Origin: a virus
Strand: one strand, 5' to 3'
IMG/VR virus record: IMGVR_UViG_3300005253_002504
Coordinates: 1 to 24,915 of that record
DNA length: 24,915 bases
The notes under the pieces were generated by a model. It saw only the letters and a program-made list of their open reading frames with translations. It was not told where the DNA came from and did no database searches. Positions within the stretch are counted from its first letter, which is position 1. Every line of letters starts with the position of its first letter. The translations under genes and the position numbers were made by a program. Shown here one piece after another: positions 1,339-23,027 of this stretch.

Positions 1339-3494
1339 TATATGCTAACTCCGGTCATTGTGTCATGAAATGCGTTATCTTTTAGTAAATTCCCAAACTC
1401 ATCTAGGCTTAATGTTATTACTTTTACGACTTCTTTTTCGCTCATTCCAGTCACTACCCTAATTGTTATTTCATTAGCTGATTGTTGGCCTCGCTGACCT
1501 TGCTGTTCTTGCCCCTGTTCGGCCGCCTGAGCGGTCGCTACGGCCTGTTCGTTAACACCCACGGCTACAACCTCTGCTGGCAGTAAAGGTATTGTAGGCG
1601 CCCCTGTGGCCCCTAGAGCGGGTGGGAGTATTGGTATAGTTGGAGTTGGTTCTGGTTGGCCAGGTTGAATGGGCTGTTCTGGCACTTCTGGTAATTGTTC
1701 TATGCCCGGCACCGTAGGTGTAGGCATTTCAATTCCTACTCTGCTAAGGCCTTTACGCAACAGATTATTTAGCACTCCAATTTCAGATGAAACTGAAGTA
1801 ACTAGATTTTCAGCAAATTCTGCTGGAGATGGTCCACCAGTGATTCCCTCTCCGGTTACGAGTTTTGACTGTGACAACCCTTTAGAGGCTACCTGTAAAT
1901 TAGAAGCAAATGCTGGACCGGCCAATAAGCCCTCAACTCCAACTGCCGTTCTTCGCGCTTGTTCGGCTGTCACAGATTGCCAGTTGGCAATCTTAGACAA
2001 TTCGTTGTTTCCTTTTATCAGTATGTCATTTTGGCTTTTAGCTAGGTCCGTGCCCCTTTCCATTGTTGCCTCTAACGCTTCAGAGCCTCCAGCAAGTTTA
2101 TCTTTAAGAGCCCCCCTATCGCCCGAAGCAAGCGCTTCTAACAACTTAGCGGCTTCCTGTTTTGATCCTGCTAGCTTTCCGAATGGCCCTTGCTGTAATA
2201 GGCTCCTTTGAAATTCAAATTGAGCAGAGGCTCCTGGGCCACCAGCAATGGCCTCCTTTCTGCTCATGATCTTTCCGCCACTAAGTCTTTTTATTGCTTC
2301 CTCAACTTTTTGAGCAACCTCATCAGCCTTGCCCTCTGCCAACATTTGCTCTATTTCAAGACCGCCCCTTAGCCCACCACCACCAATTCCAGTCTGGCTG
2401 GCCAAAAATGCACTTTGTGCAACATCCATTTGTGCCACGCCAGTGGTAAATCCTTGAACTATCTGCGTAACGGCAGCGGGCCCTAGCCCACTATCTTTTA
2501 ATGCGGGTCCAAATCGTGCCATAATATCTAATGCGGCCGATGAGTTATCTCCAAAGAACTTAAACTGTTCTCCAGTATCCTTTACATAGCGCCTCATATC
2601 TTGCATGCTCAGACCAATAGACTGAGTCGCACTATACATTCTAGAAATCGTCTCTACGGAATCTTGTACAGTGGCACCAAACTTTTGGGTCATTGTGATA
2701 ATATCTTCCTGTACATCCGCATAGTCTTGCCCAGTTCCTCGCGCTACCCTTATTGCGGCATCAAGCATATGAAATTCTTCTTCAGCGCCCTGGCCGGCCT
2801 TTACCGTCTGGTCAAAAATATCAGGCACTTTCATAAACTCATTTGCCAGTCCAGCAGTTTGCTTGGCGGTCAGCCCCATTGCGCTACCAATGTCTGCCGT
2901 CAAATCGGAAAACTGTAACACTTTCCGGCTCATACCTTCAAATGTGCCACCCATAGAACCCATCATATCATCTAACTGACCAGCTGCGGCCATATTCATG
3001 ATCATCTGGTTTTCCATGTTTTTGGCAGCTTCGCCAACTTTTATTAGATCTGCAGCATATGCTAATGGTCCTGGCAACATACCTGCCTTTGCAAGCTTGT
3101 CAGTAAGATCGCCCATTTGCGCCGTTACTTTTGAAGCATCACTGCTTATATCCCCTAACGTCTCAAATGGCCTTAATCCGGTAATAACTTTAGGAGCTAA
3201 TGCTAACATAGAGATACCAAGACCTTCAGCGCTATATCCCGCTTCTTTCATTGATAGCGTTATATCTCTGTATAATCCTAGTATTTTTTTACCAGCAACC
3301 GATCCTTCTTCAATGCCTGATGAGATTGATTTGCCAAATTTGCTAGCCTTTCTAGCGGCGGCTTCAGCAATATCACCAATGCCCTCAATCTCTGTAGAAA
3401 GGGATCCAAACTTCTCTTTAATCTCATCTAAGCTTGAACCGGACTCAAAAAGTTCTTTGAGATGGTCAATGAATTCTGTTACTGATAATGCCAT
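1338..3494 (-). CDS. Tail tape measure protein
   Basis: At 718 aa this is the longest protein between the tail chaperones and the baseplate-type gene, which is the standard tape measure position. It is Ala/Gly/Met-rich and mostly helical. Residues ~80-180 contain amphipathic and hydrophobic stretches such as GLGISMLALAPKVITGL, as expected for a protein packed in the tail lumen and later released. Residues ~590-640 are strongly Pro-rich. A short Gln-rich segment follows (~650-672), then a compact C-terminal region. By the usual rule of about 0.15 nm per residue the tail would be roughly 108 nm; this is inference. No lysozyme or peptidase motif is evident. The start has only a weak ribosome binding site and lies two bases after the frameshifted chaperone's stop, suggesting coupled translation. 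Confidence 0.85.
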   Translation of the reverse strand: MALSVTEFIDHLKELFESGSSLDEIKEKFGSLSTEIEGIGDIAEAAARKASKFGKSISSGIEEGSVAGKKILGLYRDITLSMKEAGYSAEGLGISMLALAPKVITGLRPFETLGDISSDASKVTAQMGDLTDKLAKAGMLPGPLAYAADLIKVGEAAKNMENQMIMNMAAAGQLDDMMGSMGGTFEGMSRKVLQFSDLTADIGSAMGLTAKQTAGLANEFMKVPDIFDQTVKAGQGAEEEFHMLDAAIRVARGTGQDYADVQEDIITMTQKFGATVQDSVETISRMYSATQSIGLSMQDMRRYVKDTGEQFKFFGDNSSAALDIMARFGPALKDSGLGPAAVTQIVQGFTTGVAQMDVAQSAFLASQTGIGGGGLRGGLEIEQMLAEGKADEVAQKVEEAIKRLSGGKIMSRKEAIAGGPGASAQFEFQRSLLQQGPFGKLAGSKQEAAKLLEALASGDRGALKDKLAGGSEALEATMERGTDLAKSQNDILIKGNNELSKIANWQSVTAEQARRTAVGVEGLLAGPAFASNLQVASKGLSQSKLVTGEGITGGPSPAEFAENLVTSVSSEIGVLNNLLRKGLSRVGIEMPTPTVPGIEQLPEVPEQPIQPGQPEPTPTIPILPPALGATGAPTIPLLPAEVVAVGVNEQAVATAQAAEQGQEQQGQRGQQSANEITIRVVTGMSEKEVVKVITLSLDEFGNLLKDNAFHDTMTGVSI

Positions 3495-3496
3495 AG

Positions 3497-3853
3497 CTAA
3501 TTAACAACGCTTCTACGTCTTTTACGTCTTCTTTTTGGTCTTGTCTTTTCTTTTTGTCTCTCTCTATCTGCCAACACCATTCTGGTTGACTCTTCGAAAT
3601 CTTCATCGGTTGATCCGTAATCTGGATTATCTTTTTTGAGCATCTGTTGTGCTGCTTCTGGGTTTGAGAAGGACCCTAAGAAAATCGAGAATGATTTGGC
3701 AAACTCATTTTTATCTTCTAAGTCTTGACACCAACTTTCATACATCCATAAGCGCTTCATTGGTGATAAGTTTTCGAACCAATCATCGTCTGGTTCCTTA
3801 TTATACTGCTTGCACATGTCCCAAAGAAACCTATGATCTGGCTCCTTTACTAT
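3497..3853 (-). CDS. Tail assembly chaperone frameshift extension (gpT-like part of a gpGT-type fusion)
   Basis: This is the -1 frame portion made when ribosomes slip at the A7 run at the end of the preceding gene. Reading on from 3853 in the -1 frame gives IVKEPDHRFLWD and then 106 residues from an internal Met (3817) to a TAG stop, with no interruption. The fusion would be 332 aa (214+118). The internal ATG at 3817 has no good Shine-Dalgarno, so independent initiation is unlikely. The domain is acidic in its first half and ends in a very basic tail, RPKRRRKRRR. In lambda-like and many myophage systems the equivalent fusion binds the tape measure while the short form coats it. The gene sits exactly between the short chaperone and the tape measure, as in those systems. 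Confidence 0.8.
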   Translation of the reverse strand: MVKEPDHRFLWDMCKQYNKEPDDDWFENLSPMKRLWMYESWCQDLEDKNEFAKSFSIFLGSFSNPEAAQQMLKKDNPDYGSTDEDFEESTRMVLADRERQKEKTRPKRRRKRRRSVVN

Positions 3854-3879
3854 TTTTTTACGGCCTCAACTACCTCCTT
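3823..3879 (-). promoter_or_regulatory. Programmed -1 ribosomal frameshift signal (SD + A7 + stop + hairpin)
   Basis: In sense order: an internal Shine-Dalgarno AAGGAGG (3879-3873); a 13-base spacer; the slip site A AAA AAA in zero-frame phase (3859-3853); the zero-frame stop TAG (3852-3850); then, four bases past the slip site, a 9-bp stem of AAAGGAGCC with GGTTTCTTT (3848-3840 and 3831-3823, two G-U pairs) around an 8-base loop. The layout matches that of the E. coli dnaX frameshift site. A -1 slip opens straight into the downstream chaperone frame. Confidence 0.85.
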
Positions 3880-4494
3880 AACATCTTTCTCCGTCTTGAT
3901 AGCATACTTATTTCTACTAGCTTTTAATATATGCTCCTCATAGTGCTTATACATATAATCAACAAGGTTTTCATCAAACGCCCTAATAAGGTCTAATTTA
4001 TGATCAATATCATTTGAGCTTATTAATTCCTCTATTGGCATGTTATCTACAGATGCCAATGATCTTGCCAATGTTTGCCTTCTTAGCTCAAAATTAAACT
4101 TAGCCTCATTTGTATCTCCCATGCTAATCATTGTGTCTAGAACATTTTCAAGCTCACCATCTTTTAATGATTGTAAGTGGAAAGTAACGCCATCCATTTC
4201 GAAATCTGTTTTAATTCTGCCAATTCCGGTCAAAAACTCAATTCTCTCTCTTGCAGTCTTTGATATGGCATTTTGATTGCGTTGAGACTCGGCCTTGGCT
4301 CGTTCAAATTCTGCAATCTCTTCATTGGTCAACTCTCTTAAGGGCTGTCGTTGTTGTTCCTGTGAAAAATGTTCCGGCCTAATATTTAAGTTATGGCGCC
4401 GACCTGCTGTTGGATCATCAACGGTTAACATTCGGCCCTGTTGTGGATTAGATGGAAAAGATTTCTTTCCCAATGGACTTTCTATATCTGTCAT
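3850..4494 (-). CDS. Tail assembly chaperone, short form (gpG-like)
   Basis: This 214-aa protein lies immediately upstream of the tape measure region. The first ~70 residues are polar and Gln/Glu-rich. From residue ~80 a helical domain follows (RERIEFLTGIGRIKTDFEMD and onward) with the look of tail assembly chaperones: a short beta-like segment with VTFHLQSLKDGE, then helices. It ends in EAVKK and a TAG stop that sits right after an A7 slippery run, with a frameshift signal around it. Start choice: the ATG is preceded by a GAGAGAG ribosome binding site at 7-13 bases. The role is to bind and protect the tape measure during tail assembly, with the frameshifted form as minor partner. The family is assigned from position, architecture and frameshift rather than from close sequence identity. 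Confidence 0.8.
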   Translation of the reverse strand: MTDIESPLGKKSFPSNPQQGRMLTVDDPTAGRRHNLNIRPEHFSQEQQRQPLRELTNEEIAEFERAKAESQRNQNAISKTARERIEFLTGIGRIKTDFEMDGVTFHLQSLKDGELENVLDTMISMGDTNEAKFNFELRRQTLARSLASVDNMPIEELISSNDIDHKLDLIRAFDENLVDYMYKHYEEHILKASRNKYAIKTEKDVKEVVEAVKK

Positions 4495-4575: not shown

Positions 4576-4593
4576 CGCAGTTAAACCGCTGCG
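4576..4593 (-). other. Short hairpin over the GIY-YIG stop codon (weak terminator candidate)
   Basis: CGCAG and CTGCG form a perfect 5-bp stem around an 8-base loop containing the TAA stop of the GIY-YIG gene. The bases after it are AT-rich but not a clean U-tract, so termination is uncertain. It precedes the 86-base gap before the tail chaperone gene. That gap also holds AT-rich promoter-like sequence (TTGTTATATATTTGTATA), which I cannot assign with confidence. Confidence 0.3.
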
Positions 4594-5660
4594 AAATTGT
4601 TTGTGTTTGTTAGCGGAGCAGTTTTTAATATTTTTCCAATGGTTGGCTTGCTTACTCCATATTTCTTGGCCAACTTACTTTGAGACTTTATAGTCTTATA
4701 TTCTTCTACAATCTTAATCTTATCAGCGTCTGTTAGTTTACCAACGCGCTTATTTACACCATACCGATCTAGTATATCTGAAATAGTTGATCTATCACAA
4801 TTATATCGTTTGCCCAAAACAGTAAGCGTCATTCTATCATCCGAATACTTAGAAATAATTTCCTCTTCTGTATCTAAATCAAATAATCTATTATGAGCCA
4901 CTTTGCCTTTACTGTAAAATCCTCTATTCCTCTTATCAGTGTTGTGTCTATCCAATAATCTAATAATTACAGTTCGATGACAATTATACTTCATAGCGAT
5001 TTCCGTTGTAGATAATTCTTCTGCAGTATATAATTTACATATTTCAGTTTCTTGTTCTGTTGTAAATAGTTTATTATGAGGGGTTTGCTCTTTTTTAAAC
5101 TCTGTGTCTGGAGAATAATACTTTCCTTTACTAAATACTTTGTTTCCTAAAATTTCTATATCATTCCTTTGAAGCATTTTATATACTGTTGACTGCTCGC
5201 AATGATAAATTTCAGCTAATTTTGTTATAGTTAACTTTTCATCAGAATATTTCTGACAAACTTCAGGCTCTTGTTCTTTAGTGAAAAGACGATTATGGGC
5301 GGACTTACCATACAAAGGATGGTCTGGACCGCTACCTACGCCGTTTCTCCCACCAGGAATTATGTTATATCCCTTTTTGTTACTTCTGCTTTGTAAACGA
5401 TCAATCAATTCAATCTCTGCTGAATCAACTTCTTTTTGTGTATCATATTCGTTTATAATTTTAAGCTCGAAATTATCTACGCCATATTTGGCCATGGCCA
5501 TGTGAATCACCTGAATACAAGAATCAGCAGGCTTATTCTTGCCGAGCCATAAATTTCTAGCATGACGTTTATGATCGGACCATCTCTTTTTATAGTTTTT
5601 TGATTGGCCAACATAAACCTTGTTGTTAAGCTTGTTTTGTATAGTATATATGCAGTACAT
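4581..5660 (-). CDS. GIY-YIG homing endonuclease with four helix-turn-helix repeats
   Basis: The N-terminal nuclease domain (residues ~1-100) has C3-I-Y5 and Y16-V-G18 as the GIY and YIG elements, then R26, H30, E82 in SAEIELIDRL and N99 in KGYN, matching the catalytic pattern. A GPDHPLYGKSAHN linker (111-123) resembles NUMOD3-type DNA-binding segments. Four tandem helix-turn-helix units then begin near residues 121, 195, 256 and 309. Three are introduced by HN(R/K)LF, and each has a form like LAxxYxCxxxTVxxxL. The enzyme should cut a nearby allele and spread itself. It sits between the tube and chaperone genes and does not interrupt either. Its start region is folded into a hairpin that covers the ribosome binding site. 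Its longer DNA-binding tail is unusual compared with I-TevI-type enzymes. Confidence 0.9.
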   Translation of the reverse strand: MYCIYTIQNKLNNKVYVGQSKNYKKRWSDHKRHARNLWLGKNKPADSCIQVIHMAMAKYGVDNFELKIINEYDTQKEVDSAEIELIDRLQSRSNKKGYNIIPGGRNGVGSGPDHPLYGKSAHNRLFTKEQEPEVCQKYSDEKLTITKLAEIYHCEQSTVYKMLQRNDIEILGNKVFSKGKYYSPDTEFKKEQTPHNKLFTTEQETEICKLYTAEELSTTEIAMKYNCHRTVIIRLLDRHNTDKRNRGFYSKGKVAHNRLFDLDTEEEIISKYSDDRMTLTVLGKRYNCDRSTISDILDRYGVNKRVGKLTDADKIKIVEEYKTIKSQSKLAKKYGVSKPTIGKILKTAPLTNTNNFAAV

Positions 5661-8960: not shown

Positions 8961-9752
8961 TTATAAGTCTATTAAGGCATCAAGCAGCTCAACCGAAGAA
9001 CTTATCCTAAGGTTCGGGGCTATCTGCGTTGGTTCGGTTTCTAGGTTTCCAAAATCTATACAGATAGTTATTGCGTCAACTACACTGTTAATAGGTATTT
9101 TGCGTCTCCATTCGCTTCTTATTTCATATGTTATTGTTTGTTTAAATAACTTATCATTTCTATCTTCACCTTCAGATGGAGCAGAAACGCTTAATCCTTT
9201 GATAAAAACACCAGCATTTTGAAGTTGCAACCTCTTATTATTCATGAATAAAAGCGATGCTAACTCAACAAGTTCATCTCTAGAGCGTGGAGACAGGGTC
9301 TCAATATCTATCGAGATAGAGCCTTCCCAGGCACCATTTTCTTTAAAATGGTCTGGCGTTGCAACCGTAGTTCTATTTCCATAGCCGTCTACAAAGATGG
9401 TATTTGTCCAAACAACAGCATTTAGATTCTGACTCATAGAAATTGGCACATAGCGGGAACCAGCAGATCTCACGAGCATGGCCGGATAATATCTTGCATC
9501 AAATCTGTAATATTCACCAATAAATAACCTAGTAGTATCATCATCAATAAAACCAGCATCATTCAAAAGATCGGTATGGTCAGGTACTTTTGGAAATCCC
9601 CATTCGTCTCTGACATAATGATAATATGAATCCTGGCTAAAGAACTCCCTCAGAGTGTTTATGAACACTTCTTTAGGATGCGTAATCATAGAGTTTTGAA
9701 CATAGCTATGAATAGCATACAAATCGCTGCGGAAGGTATTACCAGTACCCAT
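8961..9752 (-). CDS. Putative neck or tail terminator protein (263 aa)
   Basis: This gene lies immediately upstream of the sheath, where myophages usually carry the tail completion or terminator gene. The N-terminus is helical (SDLYAIHSYVQNSMITHPKE). A central beta-rich part includes VWTNTIFVDGYGNRTTV, and the C-terminal part has paired strands (AGVFIKGLSVSAPSE, then QTITYEIRSEW). This helix-plus-beta-sheet pattern is compatible with neck and tail-terminator folds. At 263 aa it resembles T4 gp15-sized proteins rather than the short lambda gpU type. Its ATG overlaps the stop of the HNH gene as TAATG. One DGY tripeptide is present (near residue 121). I see no diagnostic motif, so the call is by context. 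Confidence 0.5.
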   Translation of the reverse strand: MGTGNTFRSDLYAIHSYVQNSMITHPKEVFINTLREFFSQDSYYHYVRDEWGFPKVPDHTDLLNDAGFIDDDTTRLFIGEYYRFDARYYPAMLVRSAGSRYVPISMSQNLNAVVWTNTIFVDGYGNRTTVATPDHFKENGAWEGSISIDIETLSPRSRDELVELASLLFMNNKRLQLQNAGVFIKGLSVSAPSEGEDRNDKLFKQTITYEIRSEWRRKIPINSVVDAITICIDFGNLETEPTQIAPNLRISSSVELLDALIDL

Positions 9753-10360
9753 TATATCCTCTTGCTACCCTTGTATAGGTTTTCTTTAGCAGACACTGGT
9801 CTTAGATTATCAAGCGCCCAGCACTTACAAAAATTCGCATGCATCATAGAATCATACACCAAAGCAGAACGCGGTACAATATGATCTATATTCCATTTCC
9901 ATGTAGAGCTATCATTATCATTCCACGAATCCAATTTATACTTACCATAGTTATCCCAATTCATCCATGTTTCCCATTGAGATTCAATATGTTTTTTTAA
10001 CTTATCAATAGAATATGGTAGATATTTAGTTATAGATTCTCCACGCTTTGAACTATGATACTCAGACATTTTCTCACTATTAGCTGTGTTCCACAATTTG
10101 TTACACTTTAAAACCTTTTCTTTGTTATCATTATAGTAGTTTTTCCTCTTATTTTTTATTCTTTCCTGATTTGCCAAGTAATAGCGCTTTTTGTCTTTTT
10201 GTTGTTTTTCTATATTTTTTTTATTATATACTTGCTTTTGTGCCTTTATACATATTTTACATGTGGCTCTCCACGAACCTCTATCAGCTCTCCATTGAAA
10301 AAACTCATTTGTTAATGACTTTGTTTCTCCACACTTAGTGCAAATTTTTACTGTCCCCAT
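9752..10360 (-). CDS. HNH homing endonuclease with N-terminal zinc ribbon
   Basis: The 202-aa protein starts with a CxxC pair (C7, C10) and a second pair (C34, C37), a treble-clef or zinc-ribbon module common in phage HNH enzymes. A long basic helical linker rich in Lys, Asn and Tyr follows (residues ~40-130). The C-terminal HNH core shows D159-H160 in WNIDHIVPRSAL, then N185 in ALDNLRPVS and N194 in KENLYKG, the expected D-H, N, N pattern. It is wedged between the fibre stop (3-base gap) and the next gene (1-base TAATG overlap). No strong Shine-Dalgarno precedes it, so it probably relies on ribosomes leaving the fibre gene. Its Lys/Asn-rich composition differs from the structural neighbours and suggests separate acquisition. 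Confidence 0.9.
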   Translation of the reverse strand: MGTVKICTKCGETKSLTNEFFQWRADRGSWRATCKICIKAQKQVYNKKNIEKQQKDKKRYYLANQERIKNKRKNYYNDNKEKVLKCNKLWNTANSEKMSEYHSSKRGESITKYLPYSIDKLKKHIESQWETWMNWDNYGKYKLDSWNDNDSSTWKWNIDHIVPRSALVYDSMMHANFCKCWALDNLRPVSAKENLYKGSKRI

Positions 10361-10363
10361 CTA

Positions 10364-10380
10364 TTACCAGCGATAAGTTA
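10364..10380 (-). repeat. 17-bp near-identical 3' end shared with the spike gene (copy 1)
   Basis: The last 17 bases of the fibre gene match the last 17 bases of the spike gene at 16 positions. They encode the terminal TYRW and stop. DNA identity is limited to this end, while the rest of the C-terminal domains has diverged. It reflects a shared C-terminal end, by common descent or recombination. Confidence 0.7.
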
Positions 10381-13300
10381 CGGTGACTGGGCTGAAATTC
10401 AAAGTGCCTACACCAGAAAATGCCAATGAATTATTATCTAGCCTGAGGGCCAATCCCGCTCCAGGCTTATAGCTCTTATCGGGCGTAGTAATAACCGACT
10501 CAATTGCATCAAAAAGCGTTTGTGCCCCATAGTCCCATGTTGGTGTCCCAGTTGTAGATCCGGGAGGTGAATGCAATTCAATATCTCCAGTGCCACTAAC
10601 GGCAGCTGACGCCTTATAAGCTGTCATTGCTACGGTTACAACATATGTTCCAACTGGTATTATGTTTTCTAAAGATACTACCCAGTCCAGGCTTGATGCG
10701 GAAACTGTCCCAGCAGCCACAAGGCCCACGTGAGTATTCGTTATACCTCCAAGCCCTCCGGCTGATGTAACGCTCAAATTGGTAATATCCGTCCAAGGAG
10801 CTAAAGTTGCTGGTGGACTTTGCCAATGACCTTGACTGGTTAATATTAACACTGTTGCAGTTTGATTCTTGTTTCGTTCAACAATAAATGTATCTGCATA
10901 ATTACTAGCCGGGGATGTGCCTGTTCCAGTAATCGTCTCATCATCAGAGCTGCCATCAACAGTCTCACTATCAAAAATATTATCAACAACAGTGCCCATA
11001 GCACGAGTGTTATCCGTATCTAGCACGATATAATTAGAAATCGTTGAGCTGCCTCTTGTTATCCTGTTGCCAGATATGTAATACTGCCTTAGGCCTGCTG
11101 TTGTGGCTGCAGCTTGAATGCCAATACTAGCACCACCGGTCCTTAAACTGTTGTGAATGATATTATTAGTAATGGTTGCGGAAACTGATGTACTAATACC
11201 CGTTAAGAAATAATAAGTAGCAGCATCAAATATGCCAAAATGTAACATGTTGTTGGATATTATTACATTTCCCTTGTTATCAGCCGCATCATCGGCAAAT
11301 ATACCAAATAACTGACCAGATGTTGAGCTTGCTCCAAAATAGTTGGTTGGCGCCCAGTTATTTAAGAATGTCGGATCTGTGGCCGTTACTCTGTTTTTGT
11401 CAATTACTATTCCGCCATAAGTGTTGGCAGATACATCATTATCAGTCGCAGATACGAAGATGACATTACAATGATTGCTAGAGATCTCTAAATGTCCTGC
11501 CGGGAATGGCGTTGCATGAGCTAACAAAATTTGGGTTCCAACACCAGATCCGCCAACAGAGCTTATCATGTGACCAATAAGGTTAGCAGTGTTATCGCGA
11601 ACAATTATACCAGAATCTCTATCTGTCGCTACAAACGTGGTTTCTGTACTACTTATAGATGTCGTCAACACTCCAATGGCACCACAATTATTTCCAGAAA
11701 TTACAGTATCAAATGCTCTTATTCCCGGATCCTCAGCCTCGCCCGCACCGCCGGATATTGACTCAGTCTCCTGCGTTACATAAATTCCCTGGAATTTGTC
11801 ACAAATATTATCAGATATCCTAATGTGTCTAATAACTACCGGCTCTATGGTTGCTGCGGAATTTAGGCTGACAATTGCTACTGCCGACTGTCTGGTAACT
11901 GCGCCCGAGCCCGAATCATTGAACTTATTTCTCAATATCGATACATTGCTAAGCACATGGCTGGGTAATGCAGTTACCTGATCAAGTTCAAAACTGATAA
12001 ACGGTGGCCTTTGTGTTGCTGACAGAACTGAATTAAAAACACAATCTTCTATTGTAACTCCGTCCCTAGAGCCGGTGCTATAGATACATCCATTAGTTCC
12101 ATTGATTTTATCAGCAGCAGATACAAAAGTAATTCCACTTACATCAGGGTTGTAATTAAAAGTGATGTTTTTGAAAGTTACATCGTCACTTAGTATAATT
12201 CCCTTGTCGGCAGTGACATTTATAGTTGCACCGTCGCCTTCAAAAATAACAGGACTAGTAAGCCCAAGAGTTACAGATGAAGCAAGATTAAATACTCCAC
12301 GAACCTTAACTTTTAGCGTTCCTTCTGCAGCATACTGGTTGGCCCAGTTCTCAAGCTTAGAGAAAGAATCAAACTGACCTACATAACCATCTGGGGCCAA
12401 TGTTAGATCTGATCGGCCTCCGTCTGTAATAATCCTTCTTACATCAACAACATCGCTGTCAGTGATTGTAATAGACGCAATTGCTGCCGTTACAACAGCA
12501 ATTGGCACAAGATCTTTTCTTGTTTCAACAAGCTCAGTGAATGTTACTGATGGTACATAATATGTTGACCCACTAGTATTTTCTATAGCGAAGAATTGTT
12601 GCTTAGTTGGTGTAACTATGATTGGCTCAAGAAAACCTTCTTCATTTACACATACCGCCCAATCAATTGAGTCTATTGAATTTGGATTCTCAGCTATTTC
12701 AGGGATAGTTACAGAGATTGCATTAGCGGCAACCATTCGCCCATTTACAAGCGCCATTCCGCCTTTATAAAAAATCTCTCTATTATCTGTATTGATAAAG
12801 TCGAAATCAAATCCTCTTATAATGCCGTTCTCATGTAACGCCCTATCACCGGCGGTAATGAAATCTACTGCTGACTGAGTGAACTTTCCCTCATCAATGC
12901 TTCCAATCTGTTTTCTATTTATGACGCGCTGAATGATTTCTTGACCAGAGGTTGGGTCCCAATTTACTTCAACCGTTGCTAGGAGTAAAAGATCATCATT
13001 CAATTTAAGAGTATCAAAAATCTCGATATCAACATATCGTGGTGCAGCGGTGGGTAATACATCGATGGATGAAGCTAATGTAAGAGATTCCTCTACAAAT
13101 GTAAGATCAATAAAGTCTACATTGGTTTCATCATAGAAACGAGTTGGGATCTCTTTTCTTCCTCTCGTTGCCGGACCGGCATTTAGAATAGCATTACCTG
13201 ATGGGGCTCTTTGACCGATATATCCATCATACTCGCCAGTGCCAGAATCATAACTAAGAATATAAAATCTTATAAACTTGTTAAATGTAGTTGTACTATC

Positions 13301-15667
13301 TCGATAGCCCCTTAGCTTTGGAGACACATCTTCTATATGCCATATGTCTGAACGCAGTAATGCGCCAGACTCACTTTGAACGGTCATTCTTGCACGTTCA
13401 TGACTAAAAGTAGCCCCTTGACTATTTACAAAGATCTCATGTAATCTATGGTAATTCAGCGAAGTTGGAGTTTGTGCGATAATATGTTCATTGTTAAAAT
13501 CTACGGAGTCTTCTGAGAAATATAGCTTTACATTAAATGTTGGGCTTGATGAGAATCCGGTTCCAGATCCTGAAGCGTGGAGACTATTGATTACTGTAAT
13601 TAATGTCTGTGCTGGAACACCAGCACAGATTGGCGGGAATACCACCGATTTGATTATAAATCTACCATAGTCAACATCAAAGTAATTCGCATCAGTAAGC
13701 GGTATGGCCGGCTGGATAACAATTGTCTTACCAGGTTTAAGTCCTGCCGGTTTAAGATCTAGAGGGACTGTGTATGTTGTTTCAACAGTAAGTGCGCCAA
13801 CAACTGTCCTATCAGAGATGTAACCATCCCAATATCCGTCCTTATTAATATCTTCTGTCGCTAGCCAAGTTGGGGCAAAGGCCTCAAGTCTTTGGCCATC
13901 TACTATATAGTCTCTGCTCTTAAATGGAACAATAACCTTGGTAGGAAGCTGGGCAACACTAGTATTTAATAAAGTGCTACCAAAAGCTGGGCTAGCCAGA
14001 TCAGTATGAGTATTTCCCAAACCTAATGCGTCAAATCCTGTTGCGGCAGCATCTCCAATTACATTGTTAGTAAACGTACCGACCCCTAATGCGCCTAAAC
14101 TAATTGATCCGCTAGTTATAGAGAAGCTAACAGCGCTTATGGCGTCTGCCAACATGATACCAAAATTACCTTCATGTGCAAATGCAATGAATCTAAAGTT
14201 GTATCCTATCTCTCTAAGCTGCTTATTTGTTTCGTGAACAATGCTTTCAAGCGTATAGCGCCCTGGAGTAACTCCAAGGTTTCCAGTTATGTCAATGACG
14301 GGCATTGAAACAACTCTATCCGACGGGTTTCCGGAAGGATAAAGTTCTAGATACAAATTGTAATGGGACGCATCAAGCTGTCCTGGATCGAATCCGTTTC
14401 CTAGAGCCATTGCGCTACGTGGATGAGCGACAATTACACTGGACAATATTGTATCAAATGAGCCGGTAGGAGTTGCATTTGCGGCGGCAACTGCCAATAT
14501 ACCCACTGTATCGAGATCGTATAATGACCTATCAATTCTGGCAGATACATATCCGTCACTGTTATTGACTAAGTTTGTTCCATTGATTCTTACAACCCAT
14601 TCTGAAGCGGGTGTGAATCGTACAGAATCAACCTTAAATGATGCCTCAAATCCTGAACCATAATTTATACGAATAATGTCGCCAACATTTACTTGACTGA
14701 ACTGTGCATCAAAAGAGAAATCAGAATTATCCACTGGGTGGAAAGTTACTAAATCATCACCAGAAGAAATATTATCAACCGGAACAATATTAGGACTTCT
14801 TACTAAAAATGTTTTGACAGGAGTATTTGGTACAACATTCTGACCATAACCATCTGGCAATGTGTTGCTGGTAATACGGCCAATTTTGGACACTCCATTA
14901 GCATGACTAGTCGCTCTATGGTCAGCAATTGTTATTACTTCAAACTCATCTACATAATCAATAAATTTCTGAACAGTATCAACAGTTTGTGGAATCTCTA
15001 GGAATTCATCTGTATCAACATCTACAGCTGAAGCAACGTGCGCACCAGCTATTGCATTCTGATGGCCTACAAAATCTGTATTGATTTGATCAAGTGCTTG
15101 CGCCACAGTGAGAGCAGAGCGAGGAGTGCCAGCTTTGTTTAACAGGCCGCCCCATGTATATGACAAATCGCGAGCATCTACTGGTACACCATTTAGGTCA
15201 ATATGGCTTGCTACATGTCTCGCGGCCGAACCATCTGTCAACAGCGACCCACCGGCAATATGAGTATTAAGATCTGAATCGGTAGCATTTGCAAATGCTG
15301 TAAGTGAATTTAACAACGCACTGTTCGCGACAATCAGTGTGCTTAAATCTGAGGTAGAATGATCTAATGCCAGCTTTATCTCCTGGATGCCGGCAGTTGG
15401 AGATACCTGATTATTAGTGATAGGAAGTGTAACTAGACCGACGCTGGTTAGCGCAGATGATTTTATGGTACCATCTTGGTTCAAAGACGCATCAAGGCGA
15501 GCAGCTACAGAGCTAACACTGCCAGAAGGCCTTACTCCTAACTCTGTTTCAATAGCAAATATAGCTTCACGTGACTGATTAATGGCTTCGCCACCAACCT
15601 CAGTTATATTGTCATCGACACGTATAATGTCAGCATCGCTATCGATCTCAAATGGATAAACAGTCAT
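10364..15667 (-). CDS. Large beta-helix tail fibre or baseplate-attached fibre protein
   Basis: At 1767 aa this is the largest protein here. Residues 1-75 (IRVDDNITEVGGEAINQSRE, then a VSSVAARLD segment) resemble an N-terminal segment I recall from fibre-like virion proteins of large phages, probably the virion-binding end. Residues ~85-250 are helical and repetitive. Residues ~250-1080 are several beta-rich modules, including an EF-hand/dockerin-like loop DINKDGYWDGYI near residue 605. Residues ~1090-1595 form a right-handed parallel beta-helix, with repeated ISNN, ISGN and ITNN turns. The C-terminal domain (~1600-1767) starts at NKNQT and ends TYRW, like the spike upstream. Six DGY tripeptides are spread along it. 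A host-recognition or glycan-binding role is inferred. No catalytic residues can be assigned by eye. Confidence 0.75.
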   Translation of the reverse strand: MTVYPFEIDSDADIIRVDDNITEVGGEAINQSREAIFAIETELGVRPSGSVSSVAARLDASLNQDGTIKSSALTSVGLVTLPITNNQVSPTAGIQEIKLALDHSTSDLSTLIVANSALLNSLTAFANATDSDLNTHIAGGSLLTDGSAARHVASHIDLNGVPVDARDLSYTWGGLLNKAGTPRSALTVAQALDQINTDFVGHQNAIAGAHVASAVDVDTDEFLEIPQTVDTVQKFIDYVDEFEVITIADHRATSHANGVSKIGRITSNTLPDGYGQNVVPNTPVKTFLVRSPNIVPVDNISSGDDLVTFHPVDNSDFSFDAQFSQVNVGDIIRINYGSGFEASFKVDSVRFTPASEWVVRINGTNLVNNSDGYVSARIDRSLYDLDTVGILAVAAANATPTGSFDTILSSVIVAHPRSAMALGNGFDPGQLDASHYNLYLELYPSGNPSDRVVSMPVIDITGNLGVTPGRYTLESIVHETNKQLREIGYNFRFIAFAHEGNFGIMLADAISAVSFSITSGSISLGALGVGTFTNNVIGDAAATGFDALGLGNTHTDLASPAFGSTLLNTSVAQLPTKVIVPFKSRDYIVDGQRLEAFAPTWLATEDINKDGYWDGYISDRTVVGALTVETTYTVPLDLKPAGLKPGKTIVIQPAIPLTDANYFDVDYGRFIIKSVVFPPICAGVPAQTLITVINSLHASGSGTGFSSSPTFNVKLYFSEDSVDFNNEHIIAQTPTSLNYHRLHEIFVNSQGATFSHERARMTVQSESGALLRSDIWHIEDVSPKLRGYRDSTTTFNKFIRFYILSYDSGTGEYDGYIGQRAPSGNAILNAGPATRGRKEIPTRFYDETNVDFIDLTFVEESLTLASSIDVLPTAAPRYVDIEIFDTLKLNDDLLLLATVEVNWDPTSGQEIIQRVINRKQIGSIDEGKFTQSAVDFITAGDRALHENGIIRGFDFDFINTDNREIFYKGGMALVNGRMVAANAISVTIPEIAENPNSIDSIDWAVCVNEEGFLEPIIVTPTKQQFFAIENTSGSTYYVPSVTFTELVETRKDLVPIAVVTAAIASITITDSDVVDVRRIITDGGRSDLTLAPDGYVGQFDSFSKLENWANQYAAEGTLKVKVRGVFNLASSVTLGLTSPVIFEGDGATINVTADKGIILSDDVTFKNITFNYNPDVSGITFVSAADKINGTNGCIYSTGSRDGVTIEDCVFNSVLSATQRPPFISFELDQVTALPSHVLSNVSILRNKFNDSGSGAVTRQSAVAIVSLNSAATIEPVVIRHIRISDNICDKFQGIYVTQETESISGGAGEAEDPGIRAFDTVISGNNCGAIGVLTTSISSTETTFVATDRDSGIIVRDNTANLIGHMISSVGGSGVGTQILLAHATPFPAGHLEISSNHCNVIFVSATDNDVSANTYGGIVIDKNRVTATDPTFLNNWAPTNYFGASSTSGQLFGIFADDAADNKGNVIISNNMLHFGIFDAATYYFLTGISTSVSATITNNIIHNSLRTGGASIGIQAAATTAGLRQYYISGNRITRGSSTISNYIVLDTDNTRAMGTVVDNIFDSETVDGSSDDETITGTGTSPASNYADTFIVERNKNQTATVLILTSQGHWQSPPATLAPWTDITNLSVTSAGGLGGITNTHVGLVAAGTVSASSLDWVVSLENIIPVGTYVVTVAMTAYKASAAVSGTGDIELHSPPGSTTGTPTWDYGAQTLFDAIESVITTPDKSYKPGAGLALRLDNNSLAFSGVGTLNFSPVTVTYRW

Positions 15668-16100: not shown

Positions 16101-16117
16101 TTACCAACGATAAGTTA
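16101..16117 (-). repeat. 17-bp near-identical 3' end shared with the fibre gene (copy 2)
   Basis: The last 17 bases match those of the fibre gene at 10364-10380 except for one transition. They encode the TYRW terminus and TAA stop. Upstream in both genes the encoded domains start with NKNQT, but the sequences between are strongly diverged. Confidence 0.7.
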
Positions 16118-19100
16118 TAGTCATCTCAGAGACAGTTGTACCAATCCCCGCAACGCTATCATGTATCTGAAGTTGCAAATAAAGTATCGTATTTGAACCT
16201 GGTAAAGCGCGGAACGTTCCAGCTAGGATTCCGTTCAAAGTATGTGTACTGCCTGTCGTAAGATTTGTATTTGACTCAAGAGTCTCTGTTGTGAAATCTT
16301 TATCAATTATTGCCAATTTTCCTGTTTTTACAGTATCTGGCGTAGCGTCAACAATAACATCTACTGTTGCGTCAATTAGTGTAGTCCCATACGGAATCAA
16401 TCCAAATAACGGCAATAACCACTGCATATAAATTGGACTTCCAGCATCTGCTACATCATAAGTAAACTCTATAGGAGCATTAGCGAGCACTCTGATCTGA
16501 ACAAAAGAAGCTGTAACATTTGGGCCCAAACCAACAGTTGCTAGGTCGGAAGTATCACCTAATACAATTGTTCCATCTTGACCTCTTAAACTACAAGAAT
16601 CTGTTTGATTCTTATTTTGGGTAATGATCCAAATAAGACTAGAAGTATCATCCTGAACAGTTGTAGTCGTTGTTCCATCAGGTATAGGAGAACTATAAGT
16701 ATTGTTGATGATTGATCCATCAGCCTCACAAGTGGCAAGTAATCTTATATATGCTACTATAACCTCCGTGCTGACCGCACCTGCAACTGTAGTATTACCG
16801 AAACTGTTACTTGACACCATAGTTGGAGGTGCAGATCCGGTTACCGAATCACGGTTATCAATACATAGACAGCCAACAAAATTACCAGCAGAAGCGGCTT
16901 TATTCTCTGTAGTCAAAGAATTATTACTTATATTTATTTCTGGACCTCTTACCCATAATGCGGCAGCATTATCAGTTGCAGTTGCTGAAGTATAACTACT
17001 AACATTATGAATTGTGTTTCCAAATACATTAATTGGGGCAGTATAATCTGAATCGGTTGTTTCACCAGCATCATCAAAATTGTTTATAACTACAACACCA
17101 TGTTGCAACAATGTGTCTTCAGTGGTATTAGTTCCACCTGTAACTGTATTATCTTTAAAATTAACAATAAAGTTACGAGCAAAAATTTGTACAGTGCCAT
17201 GTGCCGTATAACCACTTAACAATGGGTGATATGGCTCTAAGCTTAAAGCTTTTGATTGGCCGCTAAAAGTGCAATTAGTAACGGAAAATGTGGTACCAGC
17301 AGCATTGGCGGTTGGGTCAAGTTCAACATCAAATATCGATGTAGACTTATTTGCCGAAGCAGTGCGGAAAAATGAACAATTATCAATAGACGCAAATCTT
17401 TGATTAGTATTTAGATCGGCTGCCAAACCACCAATTTTACATGCTATTCCACCATCAATAAATGATGAGTGACTCATATGCAACACTGATTGCGGATGTA
17501 TTTCAACACCCGGCAATGGATAATCTGCCGCGGACTCTGTAAACATCTGATCTGGAGAATGAAAAGTGCTATTTCGTATATCAACATCATCTCCTCGCAC
17601 ATAAACATGCGAAAAATAATCTGATACAATACCAGAATCAATTGCGGTAGTCCTAGTTTGATAATCATTTGATACAACAATCTGACAATTGTCAATTAAA
17701 ACATCACCATCAGCATCGTCAAGTCTGAAATACGATTCATTAGTCGAGGATATGTTACTTACAGTAGAACCATGTAAAGACATAGAACAATCACGCAATA
17801 TGTATCTTGGTTTCAAATCGGTTATAACCCAGGCGGTACTTGCGTAGGTGCTGAAACTTCCAACTGCTCCCGCCAAACCATTTCCGGTAAATACACACCC
17901 CTCTACAACTACATTATCTGCCCTTGGTAATAAAATACCCATTCCATCACTAAAATCACCAGTCTGCTTAAACTGAGAATTTATAACAGAAATGTTGCCC
18001 TTATTTGTTCCAGCAGTAGTATTAGGAGCATGCGATAATGTGCAGTTTTCAAATACACAATTTGTTACTCTTAACAAATCATCCACATCTGTACCATCAC
18101 TCATCTGCGGCATAATGGAGTGATAACTAGAAGTGACCGCAATATTAGACCTAAAATGAATAGATTCTAATACCGGTCCAGTTTTAAACGCCCTATTCGA
18201 TAATACACCATCAGTAGGCGCGCCGGCCCCCAAATCCATTTCAAATATTGGAATAGAATCTTTTACCTTATTTCCAATAAACTTGTAATATGCATTCCCA
18301 TTCTCTGTAATGGTATATGTTCCAGGATTTACGATTACGGTTGTAGGGTACTGATAACTGGTGTTCAATAGTAAATCAATAGCTCCGGCTCCGTAGAAAT
18401 CCCCAGAGAATCTATTATCTCCAGTTCCATCTGCATTCTCACCAACTGTAACAACCCAGTCATTTCCAACGCTTCCGCCCCAGTTATTTCCATACTGGAC
18501 AGTTACTAGATTAGCAGCGATTCCAACATTGCTATCAAATAGCTTTGCTGTTGTGGATGAGTTATCTGATGGGGCACCACTATTGCCGGCAATTACCATG
18601 CGTACAGCCGCGCCACTTACTAATGACTCCACTACAAAACAACGAGATACTTTGCTATCAGTGCTATTAACTCCAATATGATAGTTGTTTGTCAATATGG
18701 CATTACACTCTGACATTGCTACAAAGCAATCAGATGCAAGAGGCTCGCCGATTCCAGAAGCTTCTGAACCAAATGTTCTAGCGCGACAACCATCAACTAT
18801 TAAATGATCCTCATCTCCCTCACCAGGGCCAAAGTTAATCGCAGTAGCTAAGCCATCAAAAAAGCATCCCTTCACGGTTAAATAAGAACCTGTAGTGCTG
18901 CCTGATGTATAACCAATTGCCCTTAGAGTTTTGCCCCTATCAGGAACCGCACCGTTATTTACCCTGCCTATAAACTTAACATTTTCTACATATACTCGCG
19001 CAGACTTTTCAATCTGCACCATTGGAACGGTCTGCATTGTAGAATCTGGCTGTCCCGTTGAGCCAATATAGCCATCTAAATTGTCTGTAAGTGTAATATT

Positions 19101-19673
19101 TAATAGTCTAGATTCATCTATAGGTGCGCCTACTTCTGCACTAAGTTCTCCAGAACCAGAATTTCCACCAATTGTAGGAATATCAATTGAGCGCGAAAAC
19201 TTAAACATTGGCTGCTCAATCATCTCTCCATTGATAATCGAACCGGCAATTTCTCCCATGATCGAAATGCCAGCAGGAACATCTACAGTTGTATTGAGCT
19301 TGTAGGTGCCGGATAATATAAATACAACACCACCATTCTGCAGACGATCATCGGCGATAGCCGCAATAAGAGCTTCTCTAAAAGTTGGAGTAGCAGCTGA
19401 ACCATCATTATAGGTTCCGGCTGCGTAACCATCTGATCCAAGTTTGCCAACTGATACAAATCCTGTACCCGAAGAAGCCGCATATGCAGCAATAAGCACA
19501 AGTGTCCCCTGCACATCTGGAGCAGAAAAATTAGCCAAGGCTGGATTCATAGTGATATGATCAGCCGGATGCTTGTAATCACCACCCGAAGTATGGGCAA
19601 GAAAATCTCGCTTATGTGTGGCTAAAAACCCACCTTCCTTTACTCTGCCGGATCCTTGAAAACGTTCAACCAT
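16101..19673 (-). CDS. Parallel beta-helix tail spike protein
   Basis: This 1190-aa protein has a ~100-residue N-terminal region (FLATHKRDFLAHTSGGDYKH). It is followed by a segment typical of pectate-lyase-like spikes: FREALIAAI, then GGVVFILSGTYKL and VDVPAGISIMGE. From ~110 to ~1020 it shows a long series of beta-helix rungs with V.NC.F, I.NS.F and ISNNSL-type turns. The last ~170 residues begin NKNQT and end TITYRW, matching the fibre's C-terminal end. Such C-terminal domains often trimerise or cap the helix. A role in adsorption, perhaps with polysaccharide cleavage, is inferred; catalytic residues cannot be picked out by eye. A strong GAGGAG precedes the ATG. Two DGY tripeptides are present. 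The homing endonuclease on the plus strand lies just upstream, divergently transcribed. Confidence 0.8.
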   Translation of the reverse strand: MVERFQGSGRVKEGGFLATHKRDFLAHTSGGDYKHPADHITMNPALANFSAPDVQGTLVLIAAYAASSGTGFVSVGKLGSDGYAAGTYNDGSAATPTFREALIAAIADDRLQNGGVVFILSGTYKLNTTVDVPAGISIMGEIAGSIINGEMIEQPMFKFSRSIDIPTIGGNSGSGELSAEVGAPIDESRLLNITLTDNLDGYIGSTGQPDSTMQTVPMVQIEKSARVYVENVKFIGRVNNGAVPDRGKTLRAIGYTSGSTTGSYLTVKGCFFDGLATAINFGPGEGDEDHLIVDGCRARTFGSEASGIGEPLASDCFVAMSECNAILTNNYHIGVNSTDSKVSRCFVVESLVSGAAVRMVIAGNSGAPSDNSSTTAKLFDSNVGIAANLVTVQYGNNWGGSVGNDWVVTVGENADGTGDNRFSGDFYGAGAIDLLLNTSYQYPTTVIVNPGTYTITENGNAYYKFIGNKVKDSIPIFEMDLGAGAPTDGVLSNRAFKTGPVLESIHFRSNIAVTSSYHSIMPQMSDGTDVDDLLRVTNCVFENCTLSHAPNTTAGTNKGNISVINSQFKQTGDFSDGMGILLPRADNVVVEGCVFTGNGLAGAVGSFSTYASTAWVITDLKPRYILRDCSMSLHGSTVSNISSTNESYFRLDDADGDVLIDNCQIVVSNDYQTRTTAIDSGIVSDYFSHVYVRGDDVDIRNSTFHSPDQMFTESAADYPLPGVEIHPQSVLHMSHSSFIDGGIACKIGGLAADLNTNQRFASIDNCSFFRTASANKSTSIFDVELDPTANAAGTTFSVTNCTFSGQSKALSLEPYHPLLSGYTAHGTVQIFARNFIVNFKDNTVTGGTNTTEDTLLQHGVVVINNFDDAGETTDSDYTAPINVFGNTIHNVSSYTSATATDNAAALWVRGPEINISNNSLTTENKAASAGNFVGCLCIDNRDSVTGSAPPTMVSSNSFGNTTVAGAVSTEVIVAYIRLLATCEADGSIINNTYSSPIPDGTTTTTVQDDTSSLIWIITQNKNQTDSCSLRGQDGTIVLGDTSDLATVGLGPNVTASFVQIRVLANAPIEFTYDVADAGSPIYMQWLLPLFGLIPYGTTLIDATVDVIVDATPDTVKTGKLAIIDKDFTTETLESNTNLTTGSTHTLNGILAGTFRALPGSNTILYLQLQIHDSVAGIGTTVSEMTITYRW

Positions 19674-19782: not shown

Positions 19783-20580
19783 ATGAGTAAAAAGAAAAAA
19801 CTAGAACGATTGTATAAAAAACTAGGATCGTTAAAAGCTATATCCAAAGAACTCGGAGTGCATGACACAACAGTCGGCAAATGGTTTAAAAAATATAAGA
19901 TACCATATGACCATTGGAACAGATCAAAAAGCCGCAAAGACTTCTTAAACGAAAATTTCTTTGAAGCCCCAAATTATATAAATAAGCTTTACTGGATAGG
20001 GTTTTTAGCGGCAGATGGTAATGTCTCGAAATCAATAAATAATATTAGAATTAACTTAAGAAAACAAGATTTTGCCCATCTGCAAAAATTCTTAACAGAC
20101 CTAAAAAGCTCAAAACAAGTTAAAATCTATAAGGGTACAAATTACGCCTATGCATGTGCGTGCGTTTCGTCATCTAAAATGAAAAAAGATCTGGTAAAAT
20201 ATAACATACTACCACAAAAGACAAACAACTATAAATTCCCAACAATCCTGGATAATAATACCTACATAAATAATTACTATTTAGGATATATAGACGGAGA
20301 TGGATGTATCCGCAAAACTAAAAATGGGCAACTAAGTATAGATATAAGAGGAACAAAGCTGTTCTTAGAAAAGTTAAGGTATGATTTCTGGAAACGTATT
20401 AACTTAAACATTAAATATAAACATAAAAAAATATTATTAGATAATGGCACATATAGGATATTCTACGGTGGCAATTTGAATGGAGCCAAAATAATAAATT
20501 GGCTGTACAAGGATATTAGTGACGTAAGTTTTAGATGCCTAGAAAGAAAGCTAAATATTGCAAGGCAATTTATAGGATAA
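19783..20580 (+). CDS. LAGLIDADG homing endonuclease (plus strand)
   Basis: The 265-aa protein has two LAGLIDADG motifs: YWIGFLAADG (70-79, acidic D78) and YYLGYIDGDG (165-174, acidic D173). It is therefore a monomeric enzyme with both half-sites in one chain. A helix-turn-helix lies at the N-terminus (~15-40, LKAISKELGVHDTTVGKW). It is very Lys/Asn/Ile-rich compared with its neighbours, fitting independent arrival. It is the only real gene on the plus strand. Its last 11 bases overlap the tail of the convergent 530-aa gene, and its start is 109 bases from the divergent spike start. Its own promoter is therefore needed, or antisense transcription may occur. GAGAG precedes the ATG. Free-standing homing role inferred; the target is unknown. 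Confidence 0.9.
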   Translation: MSKKKKLERLYKKLGSLKAISKELGVHDTTVGKWFKKYKIPYDHWNRSKSRKDFLNENFFEAPNYINKLYWIGFLAADGNVSKSINNIRINLRKQDFAHLQKFLTDLKSSKQVKIYKGTNYAYACACVSSSKMKKDLVKYNILPQKTNNYKFPTILDNNTYINNYYLGYIDGDGCIRKTKNGQLSIDIRGTKLFLEKLRYDFWKRINLNIKYKHKKILLDNGTYRIFYGGNLNGAKIINWLYKDISDVSFRCLERKLNIARQFIG

Positions 20581-22162: not shown

Positions 22163-22647
22163 TATACTTGTTGAGCCATATTAAGTAAGTCTTTCCTGCG
22201 TTTAGCTTTATCATCATCATCAACATCATGATGGTTTAAGACTTGTTCAACATAGTTAACAGCAGCTTGATCATCACGAGTTTCTGATAGATATTCAGTT
22301 TGTGTCTGAAATCCTTCTTGTTCATATTCGTTGTCTAAATAATCTTCACTATTATTGGATCCCTTTGTTGGCCCATCTCCGAAACATTGCTGCCGCCAAT
22401 GTTCAAGCTCGTGAATCATATAATGATCATTTTGATTAAAATCATCTAATAAATTATAATTAAAATATATACAACCCTTTTCTGTTCTTGCCGAAACATC
22501 TAAATCTGCAAAAGCCATTGGTACCAAAAAGATTATACTTTCATCAACACCAATTTCTCTACATAAATCTTTATAAACATCACTGTTTTTAACCTTTTGT
22601 TTAACAGCCTCAATAATAGGCAGCGTTTGTTTATGAGATAGTTTCAT
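22162..22647 (-). CDS. HExxH zincin-like putative metallopeptidase
   Basis: The 161-aa protein carries HELEH (H79, E80, H83), the zinc-binding and catalytic motif of zincins. A downstream acidic stretch (DYLDNEYEQEGFQTQTEY, with E109 and E111) could supply a third ligand in gluzincin fashion. A strand-like ADLDVSARTEKGCIYFNYN precedes the motif, as in many small zincins. The C-terminus is charged. It has no signal peptide or membrane segment. It overlaps the HTH fragment upstream (ATGA) and the 530-aa gene downstream (TAATG), so it is probably co-translated with them. Possible jobs are virion maturation, host takeover or cell-envelope peptide cleavage; none can be chosen from sequence. It has no clear ribosome binding site of its own. 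Confidence 0.7.
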   Translation of the reverse strand: MKLSHKQTLPIIEAVKQKVKNSDVYKDLCREIGVDESIIFLVPMAFADLDVSARTEKGCIYFNYNLLDDFNQNDHYMIHELEHWRQQCFGDGPTKGSNNSEDYLDNEYEQEGFQTQTEYLSETRDDQAAVNYVEQVLNHHDVDDDDKAKRRKDLLNMAQQV

Positions 22648-23027
22648 ATTATTTTATACTGTTGTAGGTACTTTCTTATTGTTGTAGGAGATCTGGTAAG
22701 CTCAACACTTACTTTACGAATACTTCCATGTTTGAGATATAGTTTTTCTAATAAATCCTTGTTTAAATTTAAAGTTTTAGATTTACTAACTCTATCTCCT
22801 TTATAAAGCGATGTAAGTGGTATATTATATTTTTTTAGATACTTATATACAGCCCCAGTAGAACACCCAAGTTCTTTTGCCACTAAAAGAGCAGACTGAT
22901 ATTGTTCATATAGCCTTTTTATTTTAGCCTTATCTATATTCAATATTATTGTCTGTTGGTCTGATATTTTAGTACGTTTTGCTAATTCAAATTTACGATC
23001 TAAGTAAGACAATGATTTGCCGTACAA
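22644..23027 (-). CDS. Orphan helix-turn-helix protein, probable homing-endonuclease remnant
   Basis: Two helix-turn-helix units are visible: residues ~34-72 (LLVAKELGCSTGAVYKYLKK) and ~90-125 (SIRKVSVELTRSPTTIRKYL). They strongly resemble the N-terminal units of the two LAGLIDADG enzymes in this window, but no nuclease domain follows. The start given is a TTG with no ribosome binding site. The same frame is open back to 23153, without an ATG, and its extra part reads DVFLISEYLYGKSLSYLDRK, perhaps a third helix-turn-helix. Either an unusual start is used, or this is the decayed front half of a homing endonuclease. The stop overlaps the zincin start as ATGA. It could still act as a DNA-binding regulator. 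Confidence 0.5.
   Translation of the reverse strand: MYGKSLSYLDRKFELAKRTKISDQQTIILNIDKAKIKRLYEQYQSALLVAKELGCSTGAVYKYLKKYNIPLTSLYKGDRVSKSKTLNLNKDLLEKLYLKHGSIRKVSVELTRSPTTIRKYLQQYKII

Follow-up and report, generated by a model that had tools for sequence, protein, structure and literature searches.

Frameshifting between tail assembly chaperone genes is classical, and different phages are known to use −1, −2 or +1 shifts for it. In E. coli dnaX, whose slip site is A AAA AAG, the new frame stops at once and yields a shorter product. The tail chaperone frameshift of dsDNA phages, including that of lambda G/GT, is treated by Xu, Hendrix and Duda (2004), as cited in PMC5009743. Internal Shine-Dalgarno-like (SD) sequences that act as stimulators are spaced 9–14 nt from the slip site for −1 shifts and 3 nt for +1 shifts (PMC5009743), and a range of 6–17 nt has also been given (PMC4066793); an SD is estimated to be present in 56% of IS elements (PMC5009743), and the SD spacing of prfB is almost universally kept (PMC12421855). 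The annotated relative of the locus described here is found in Bacillus phage G (JN638751), where gp181/gp182 are distant homologues of our G and T, likewise lie before the tape measure gene, and gp182 is annotated as a joined CDS, ‘tail assembly chaperone’, with the −1 site A AAA AAC followed by TAG. Since this homologous pair is already annotated as a joined chaperone, the tail-chaperone frameshift itself is known, and the element reported here is, on well-supported sequence evidence, a frameshift of a known kind.

The element lies in a 24.9-kb virus record (the window), in which the frameshift element and the tail genes are all read on the minus strand (Table 1). The 3′ end of G reads ...GTT AAG GAG GTA GTT GAG GCC GTA AAA AAA TAG, where the 13-nt spacer between AAGGAGG and A AAA AAA is TAGTTGAGGCCGT and the phase of the heptamer is GTA AAA AAA TAG; the four bases TAGT then separate the heptamer from a stem of 9 bp (two of them G-U) with a loop of 8 nt. 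The zero frame ends at the TAG; the −1 frame runs on for 118 codons, beginning with I-V-K-E-P-D-H-R-F-L-W-D, 12 residues that precede the Met at 3817. A −1 slip would therefore give ...EAVKK-IVKEPDHRFLWD-MCKQ... and a predicted G-T fusion of 332 aa. These elements had been read from the letters by the first-pass annotation, and all were recovered: the SD with its 13-base spacer, the in-phase heptamer and the immediate TAG, the 9-bp stem with two G-U pairs four bases past the slip site, and, on recomputation, the entry of the −1 frame into the 106-aa ORF 12 residues before its Met and the length of the fusion. The SD spacing of 13 nt lies inside both published ranges for such stimulators (PMC5009743; PMC4066793).

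Table 1. Frameshift element and neighbouring tail genes, with positions in the window.
Feature	Position	Strand	Remarks
G-type tail assembly chaperone ORF, 214 aa, zero frame	3850..4494	-	ends ...EAVKK-TAG
Internal SD-like AAGGAGG (AAGGAGGT with the next base)	3873..3879	-	13 nt before the heptamer
Slip site A AAA AAA	3853..3859	-	phase allows tandem −1 slippage
Zero-frame stop TAG	3850..3852	-	directly 3′ of the slip site
Downstream stem, 5′ arm AAAGGAGCC	3840..3848	-	
Downstream stem, 3′ arm GGTTTCTTT	3823..3831	-	
T segment, −1 frame, 118 aa from IVKEPDHRFLW... plus stop	3497..3853	-	contains the 106-aa ORF 3497-3817
Tape-measure-like protein, 718 aa	1338..3494	-	directly downstream of T; Pfam TMP_3 E=2.4e-6, below the curated cut-off
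Probable tail tube protein, 206 aa	5725..6345	-	upstream of G; PHROG 985 virion structural protein E=5.6e-4
Tail sheath, 819 aa	6399..8858	-	PHROG 2839 tail sheath E=4.9e-14

The cassette had been called dnaX-like. The name suits its upstream SD at a −1-type distance, its A-rich heptamer and its downstream stem, but it is a loose one, as in the window it is the zero frame that ends and the new frame that gives the longer product, as in the IS3 family and lambda G/GT, in place of the immediate termination after the shift seen in dnaX. IS3-family elements (IS911) resemble the window in the A AAA AAN heptamer, in the combination of SD and stem and in the fusion of two ORFs, whereas their genes encode transposases and show no homology to ours. 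Compared with lambda G/GT, the window has A AAA AAA with SD and stem, and the set of stimulators varies among the clades of its family; the fold match to N15 GT is weak (E 0.34), and the comparison with lambda G is one by analogy. Phage G differs from the window in its A AAA AAC site, in a modest SD (AAAGGA-type, −4.6 kcal/mol, at much the same distance, 12 nt before the heptamer, at 3262–3300 of locus L173) and in a stem of 5 bp.

The identity of the two proteins is supported by both gene order and homology. The minus-strand order is sheath, probable tube, a GIY-YIG endonuclease ORF, G, T and tape measure, and two ORFs between tube/sheath and tape measure form a chaperone-type arrangement; the name ‘tube’ is a probable one, derived from the position of this gene after the sheath. 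PHROG and Pfam searches with the window G and T proteins themselves returned no match, but other G members of the family match PHROGs 2792, 2992 and 344 and other T members PHROGs 4988 and 25000, all named ‘tail assembly chaperone’. PHROG 1316, ‘RNA polymerase beta subunit’, also matches eight T members (best 4.5e-8), and this PHROG name looks wrong. The AF2 model of G (pLDDT 83) matches in Foldseek the chaperone of Rhodococcus phage Finch and gp181/gp182 of Bacillus phage G (E 7e-7 to 3e-6), and the best match of the T model, a weak one, is phage G gp182 (E 0.014). Family HMMs also detect the phage G proteins, with E=1.9e-18 for the G HMM and gp181 and E=3.3e-18 for the T HMM and the second frame of gp182. 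Searches by tblastn of phage isolates with the window G, the window sheath and G of another locus (L084) found nothing, and neither did a direct search of viral contigs with the window G.

T is too divergent in protein alignment for a contig scan, and relatives were gathered by searches with the sheath. These gave about 170 loci, with many contigs represented more than once, and 82 distinct G-T junctions were left after removal of duplicates. Except for phage G and one contig from a metagenome-assembled genome (MAG), the relatives are viral metagenome contigs, many of them 200–460 kb long. The exception, L110, is a 383-kb contig of a Chitinophagales MAG with the site A AAA AAA TAA, and may point to a host or be an artefact of binning. 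The T frame is −1 relative to G at 66 junctions and +1 at 16. At the junction, all 66 of the −1 relatives have a heptamer in the proper phase (51 A AAA AAA, 12 A AAA AAC and one each of A AAA AAG, T TTA AAA and T TTA AAG), while all 16 of the +1 junctions carry AAA AGY (AGT or AGC) at the homologous codon; the per-codon background in G genes is 0.8% for in-phase X XXY YYZ and 1.7% for AAA A. Not one of the 82 junctions breaks this rule of frame and slip site. A further 17 loci have no complete recognisable G-T pair, and none of them is a counter-example: most stop before or inside the pair and a few hold intervening endonuclease-like or unrelated DNA. The stop directly after the slip site, as it was described for the window, recurs in 47 of the 66 −1 relatives; in the remaining 19 one sense codon precedes it. 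At every junction T resumes 1–2 codons past the slip site with an IVKEPDHRFLW-like sequence (I/V-V-K-E/D-P-D-H-R-F), and T is conserved in frame right from the codon after the slip site. Comparison of the junctions thus shows a conserved slip site, an obligatory frame relation and T coding that starts from the slip site.

This pattern bears directly on whether T could be a separate gene, started at the ATG at 3817 or at some other start and merely adjacent to G. The ATG does exist and the 106-aa ORF behind it is open, but L003, the window's nearest relative, is the only other locus that has this ATG, which argues against separate initiation of T. The AAAGGAG about 22 nt upstream of it is too far for initiation and nothing nearer is SD-like, while VKEPDHRFLW, ahead of the ATG, is conserved in frame up to the slip site. 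Nor is there a common start elsewhere, the first T codon among relatives being ATA, AGC, ATC, ATT, CTA, CTC or GTA. With no conserved start and conserved coding upstream, an independent start of T was rejected, as was reinitiation at the ATA overlapping the TAG, since relatives carry AGC, CTA, GTA and others at that place; we regard a separately started T as highly implausible.

Sites of transcriptional slippage are typically homopolymers of about nine or more, and their action does not depend on phase. The A runs here are A7 or shorter, the heptamers are heterogeneous and they are always in phase. Slippage of RNA polymerase on the A7, which would yield mRNAs of altered length and produce the fusion in that way, is scarcely credible as an explanation: although A7 runs can slip in transcription (PMC4066793), relatives with A6C, T TTA AAA (with four A) or T TTA AAG (with three) retain tandem re-pairing without a long homopolymer, the phase is always X XXY YYZ, and the selected SD and the stem described below act on ribosomes. 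The −1 ribosomal shift accounts for these features, and we consider it very probable that the window element is a programmed −1 ribosomal frameshift that joins G and T into the predicted fusion, a reading built on sequence comparison.

The −1 junctions were divided into a near clade, which contains the window, and a far clade by a sequence motif in T, and the agreement of this division with the sheath tree was found afterwards. The calculated energy of pairing with the anti-SD shows a single sharp peak, with a mean in the window's clade of −8.4 against a background of −1.3 kcal/mol and a mean in the +1 clade of −10.9; the far clade has none. A strong SD is present at 26 of 35 near −1 loci, 15 of 16 +1 loci and 3 of 31 far loci. 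Together with the heptamer found in every −1 relative, this answers the proposal of the first-pass annotation to look for slip site and SD in homologues, and its central claim, a −1 frameshift from a G-type to a T-type chaperone, is borne out: relatives conserve the slip site, the SD and coding in the T frame ahead of the ATG, and none of the outcomes that the annotation had named as refuting it was encountered. Family gene starts are also enriched in SD, less so than the internal position, which suggests that hosts of the family use SD.

AAGGAGG could, on the other hand, be conserved solely for the Lys-Glu-Val of the G protein that it encodes in frame, with the SD no stimulator at all, and K, E and V are indeed the commonest residues at these positions. 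However, the first of them varies between K, E, Q, S, R and D, and codon choice points to the nucleotides themselves: at the Glu codon of the SD, GAG in place of GAA is used in 20 of 27 cases in the near −1 clade against 9.7 expected (P=2e-5) and in 13 of 13 in the +1 clade against 4.7 expected (P 1e-7), statistics that are optimistic because related sequences are not independent. The bias to GAG and AAG is found mainly at the SD position, and Glu codons adjoining it are mostly free of GAG bias. Protein constraint as the sole cause is thus unlikely in our judgement, and comparison of the sequences shows the SD of the near −1 clade to be under selection at the nucleotide level, with P values made optimistic by relatedness.

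The contribution of the stem is less certain. Against shuffles of synonymous codons, which keep the protein and codon usage, the window's own stem stands out (z = −2.2, p = 0.027), and to this extent the stem claimed for the cassette holds; it is not a general feature, since folding better than that of synonymous shuffles is confined to about one third of the near −1 members. The near −1 clade has a mean z of −1.1, with core pairing that beats 486 of 500 nulls, a figure rendered optimistic by relatedness. In the far clade, for which the first 42 nt of T were folded, the mean dG is −14.2 and the mean z −3.1, with 23 of 23 tested members below zero, and a six-pair core (GGAGCC with GGNTCC-type arms) at the same place as the window stem beats all 500 of 500 synonymous nulls, again optimistically for related sequences. 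The core is absent from the +1 clade. Roughly half of the near −1 clade has only a weak stem or none, so that for the window the part played by the slip site is more certain than any played by the stem. The stimulators evidently turn over within the family: a strong stem without an SD marks the far clade, a selected SD the window's clade, where some members add a stem, and the +1 clade combines the strongest SD with the lack of a −1 stem. We found no support for SD and stem trading off across the tree, either in independent pairs or in a correlation within the near clade (Spearman 0.14).

In the +1 clade (L047, L058-L064, L066, L068-L071, L073, L081 and L147) the SD lies about 17 nt upstream of the AAA slip codon, AGY occupies the A site and the stop comes 2–7 codons later. 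Sheath trees place these loci in one group, with one change (support 97–98; under a simpler model 90, not starred), and a tree that keeps the near −1 loci together without the +1 loci is rejected (AU p 0.0031), and therefore an origin of the +1 clade from within the −1 group is the most likely. In a DNA alignment made without guidance, a gap of two bases falls precisely on the slip site, and a possible path is a lengthening of the A run by two bases: an A9 would serve a +1 shift at the second AAA codon and lead to the same T product. As to where the shift occurs, the T frame opens 2 nt before AAA in four +1 loci and is closed between SD and AAA in 9 of 16, and in the loci with 5–7 zero-frame codons after AAA the new frame is the more conserved one over this overlap (0.68 vs 0.49 identity). 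Late opening of the T frame and conservation of the overlap point to a +1 shift at AAA A, before the stop; a shift near the SD was rejected on the closed T frame, and a shift at the zero-frame stop on the conservation of the overlap before it.

An SD at a −1-type distance would also fit a −2 movement of the ribosome in this clade, as phage Mu tail genes use −2 (PMC5009743) and the spacing of about 17 nt greatly exceeds the 3 nt seen in prfB. We nevertheless find it decidedly improbable, as no tRNA pair re-pairs at NNN AAA AGY and the codon before AAA varies (TCC, ACC, AAC, AAT, CGG, AGA, CGA, TCG), while a +1 shift gives a perfect AAA-to-AAA move in 16 of 16 loci. The +1 shift resembles that of prfB (RF2), where one P-site tRNA also moves +1 and an internal SD lies upstream. 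The two differ in detail: prfB has its SD 3 nt upstream and CUU before UGA, while the +1 clade, with its SD at about 17 nt and AAA before a Ser codon, has neither an SD at 3 nt nor a stop in the A site. Tail chaperones joined by +1 have been described in haloarchaeal myoviruses (HSTV-2, HF1 group; PMC5009743, PMC7230728). In the HF1 group, however, the proposed site is TTT CGC and no SD is reported, and any kinship of these viruses with the present family is conjectural.

The SD of the +1 clade would act either as a pause without direction or in something else. We give slightly less than an even chance to the reading that a change of two bases at the slip site brought about a single switch from −1 on A AAA AAA to +1 on AAA AGY at one and the same codon, and that the same SD stimulates both directions despite the distance of about 17 nt. 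If this is true, the SD works as a pause or tether that is neutral as to direction, the direction being set by the slip sequence together with loss of the stem, and the rule that a +1 shift requires an SD 3 nt away is contradicted. It is this single switch with retention of the distant SD that is the less expected part of the analysis, and a search of the literature, mainly of open-licence papers, found no description of such a change of direction.

For the window, the following account of slippage, of how efficient it is and of what G and G-T do is inferred. The majority of ribosomes would translate G and terminate at TAG, giving the 214-aa protein, while a minority would pause as AAGGAGG pairs with the 3′ end of the 16S rRNA and the stem lies ahead. 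Paused ribosomes may then move back by one base while the two Lys tRNAs sit on A AAA AAA, and go on into T to produce the 332-aa G-T. On the model of lambda gpG/gpGT, G would form a coat on the tape-measure protein, with the T part bringing in tail tube subunits. At the level of the family, one clade would later have moved to +1 at the same codon, with the SD kept, the stem lost and one Lys tRNA moving from AAA to AAA at AAA AGY.

What is rare here is a dense natural series in one family. Its tree allows slip site, SD and stem to be traced, and forms with a stem only, with SD plus stem, with SD only at −1 and with SD only at +1 coexist with the same protein output; such a series makes the control of direction and the SD distance rule testable. 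In practical terms, ordinary gene finding would call T a separate short ORF, or shorten it, in these uncultured, often very large phages.

The tail genes of the window also contain several endonuclease-like ORFs. The GIY-YIG ORF between tube and G (359 aa, 4581-5660, minus strand) carries several helix-turn-helix repeats, and a relative of it occupies the same gap in L001 (3180-4232) and L005. Four further free-standing endonuclease-like ORFs lie among the tail genes at 19783-20580 (+), 23896-24846 (-), 22644-23027 (-) and 9752-10360 (-); by kind they comprise two LAGLIDADG_3 (one with NUMOD1), one HTH and one HNH-looking 202-aa ORF without a Pfam match. Finally, two very long ORFs of 1767 and 1190 aa (10364-15667 and 16101-19673, minus strand) have no Pfam match and look fibre-like by eye, and both end in ...TYRW.
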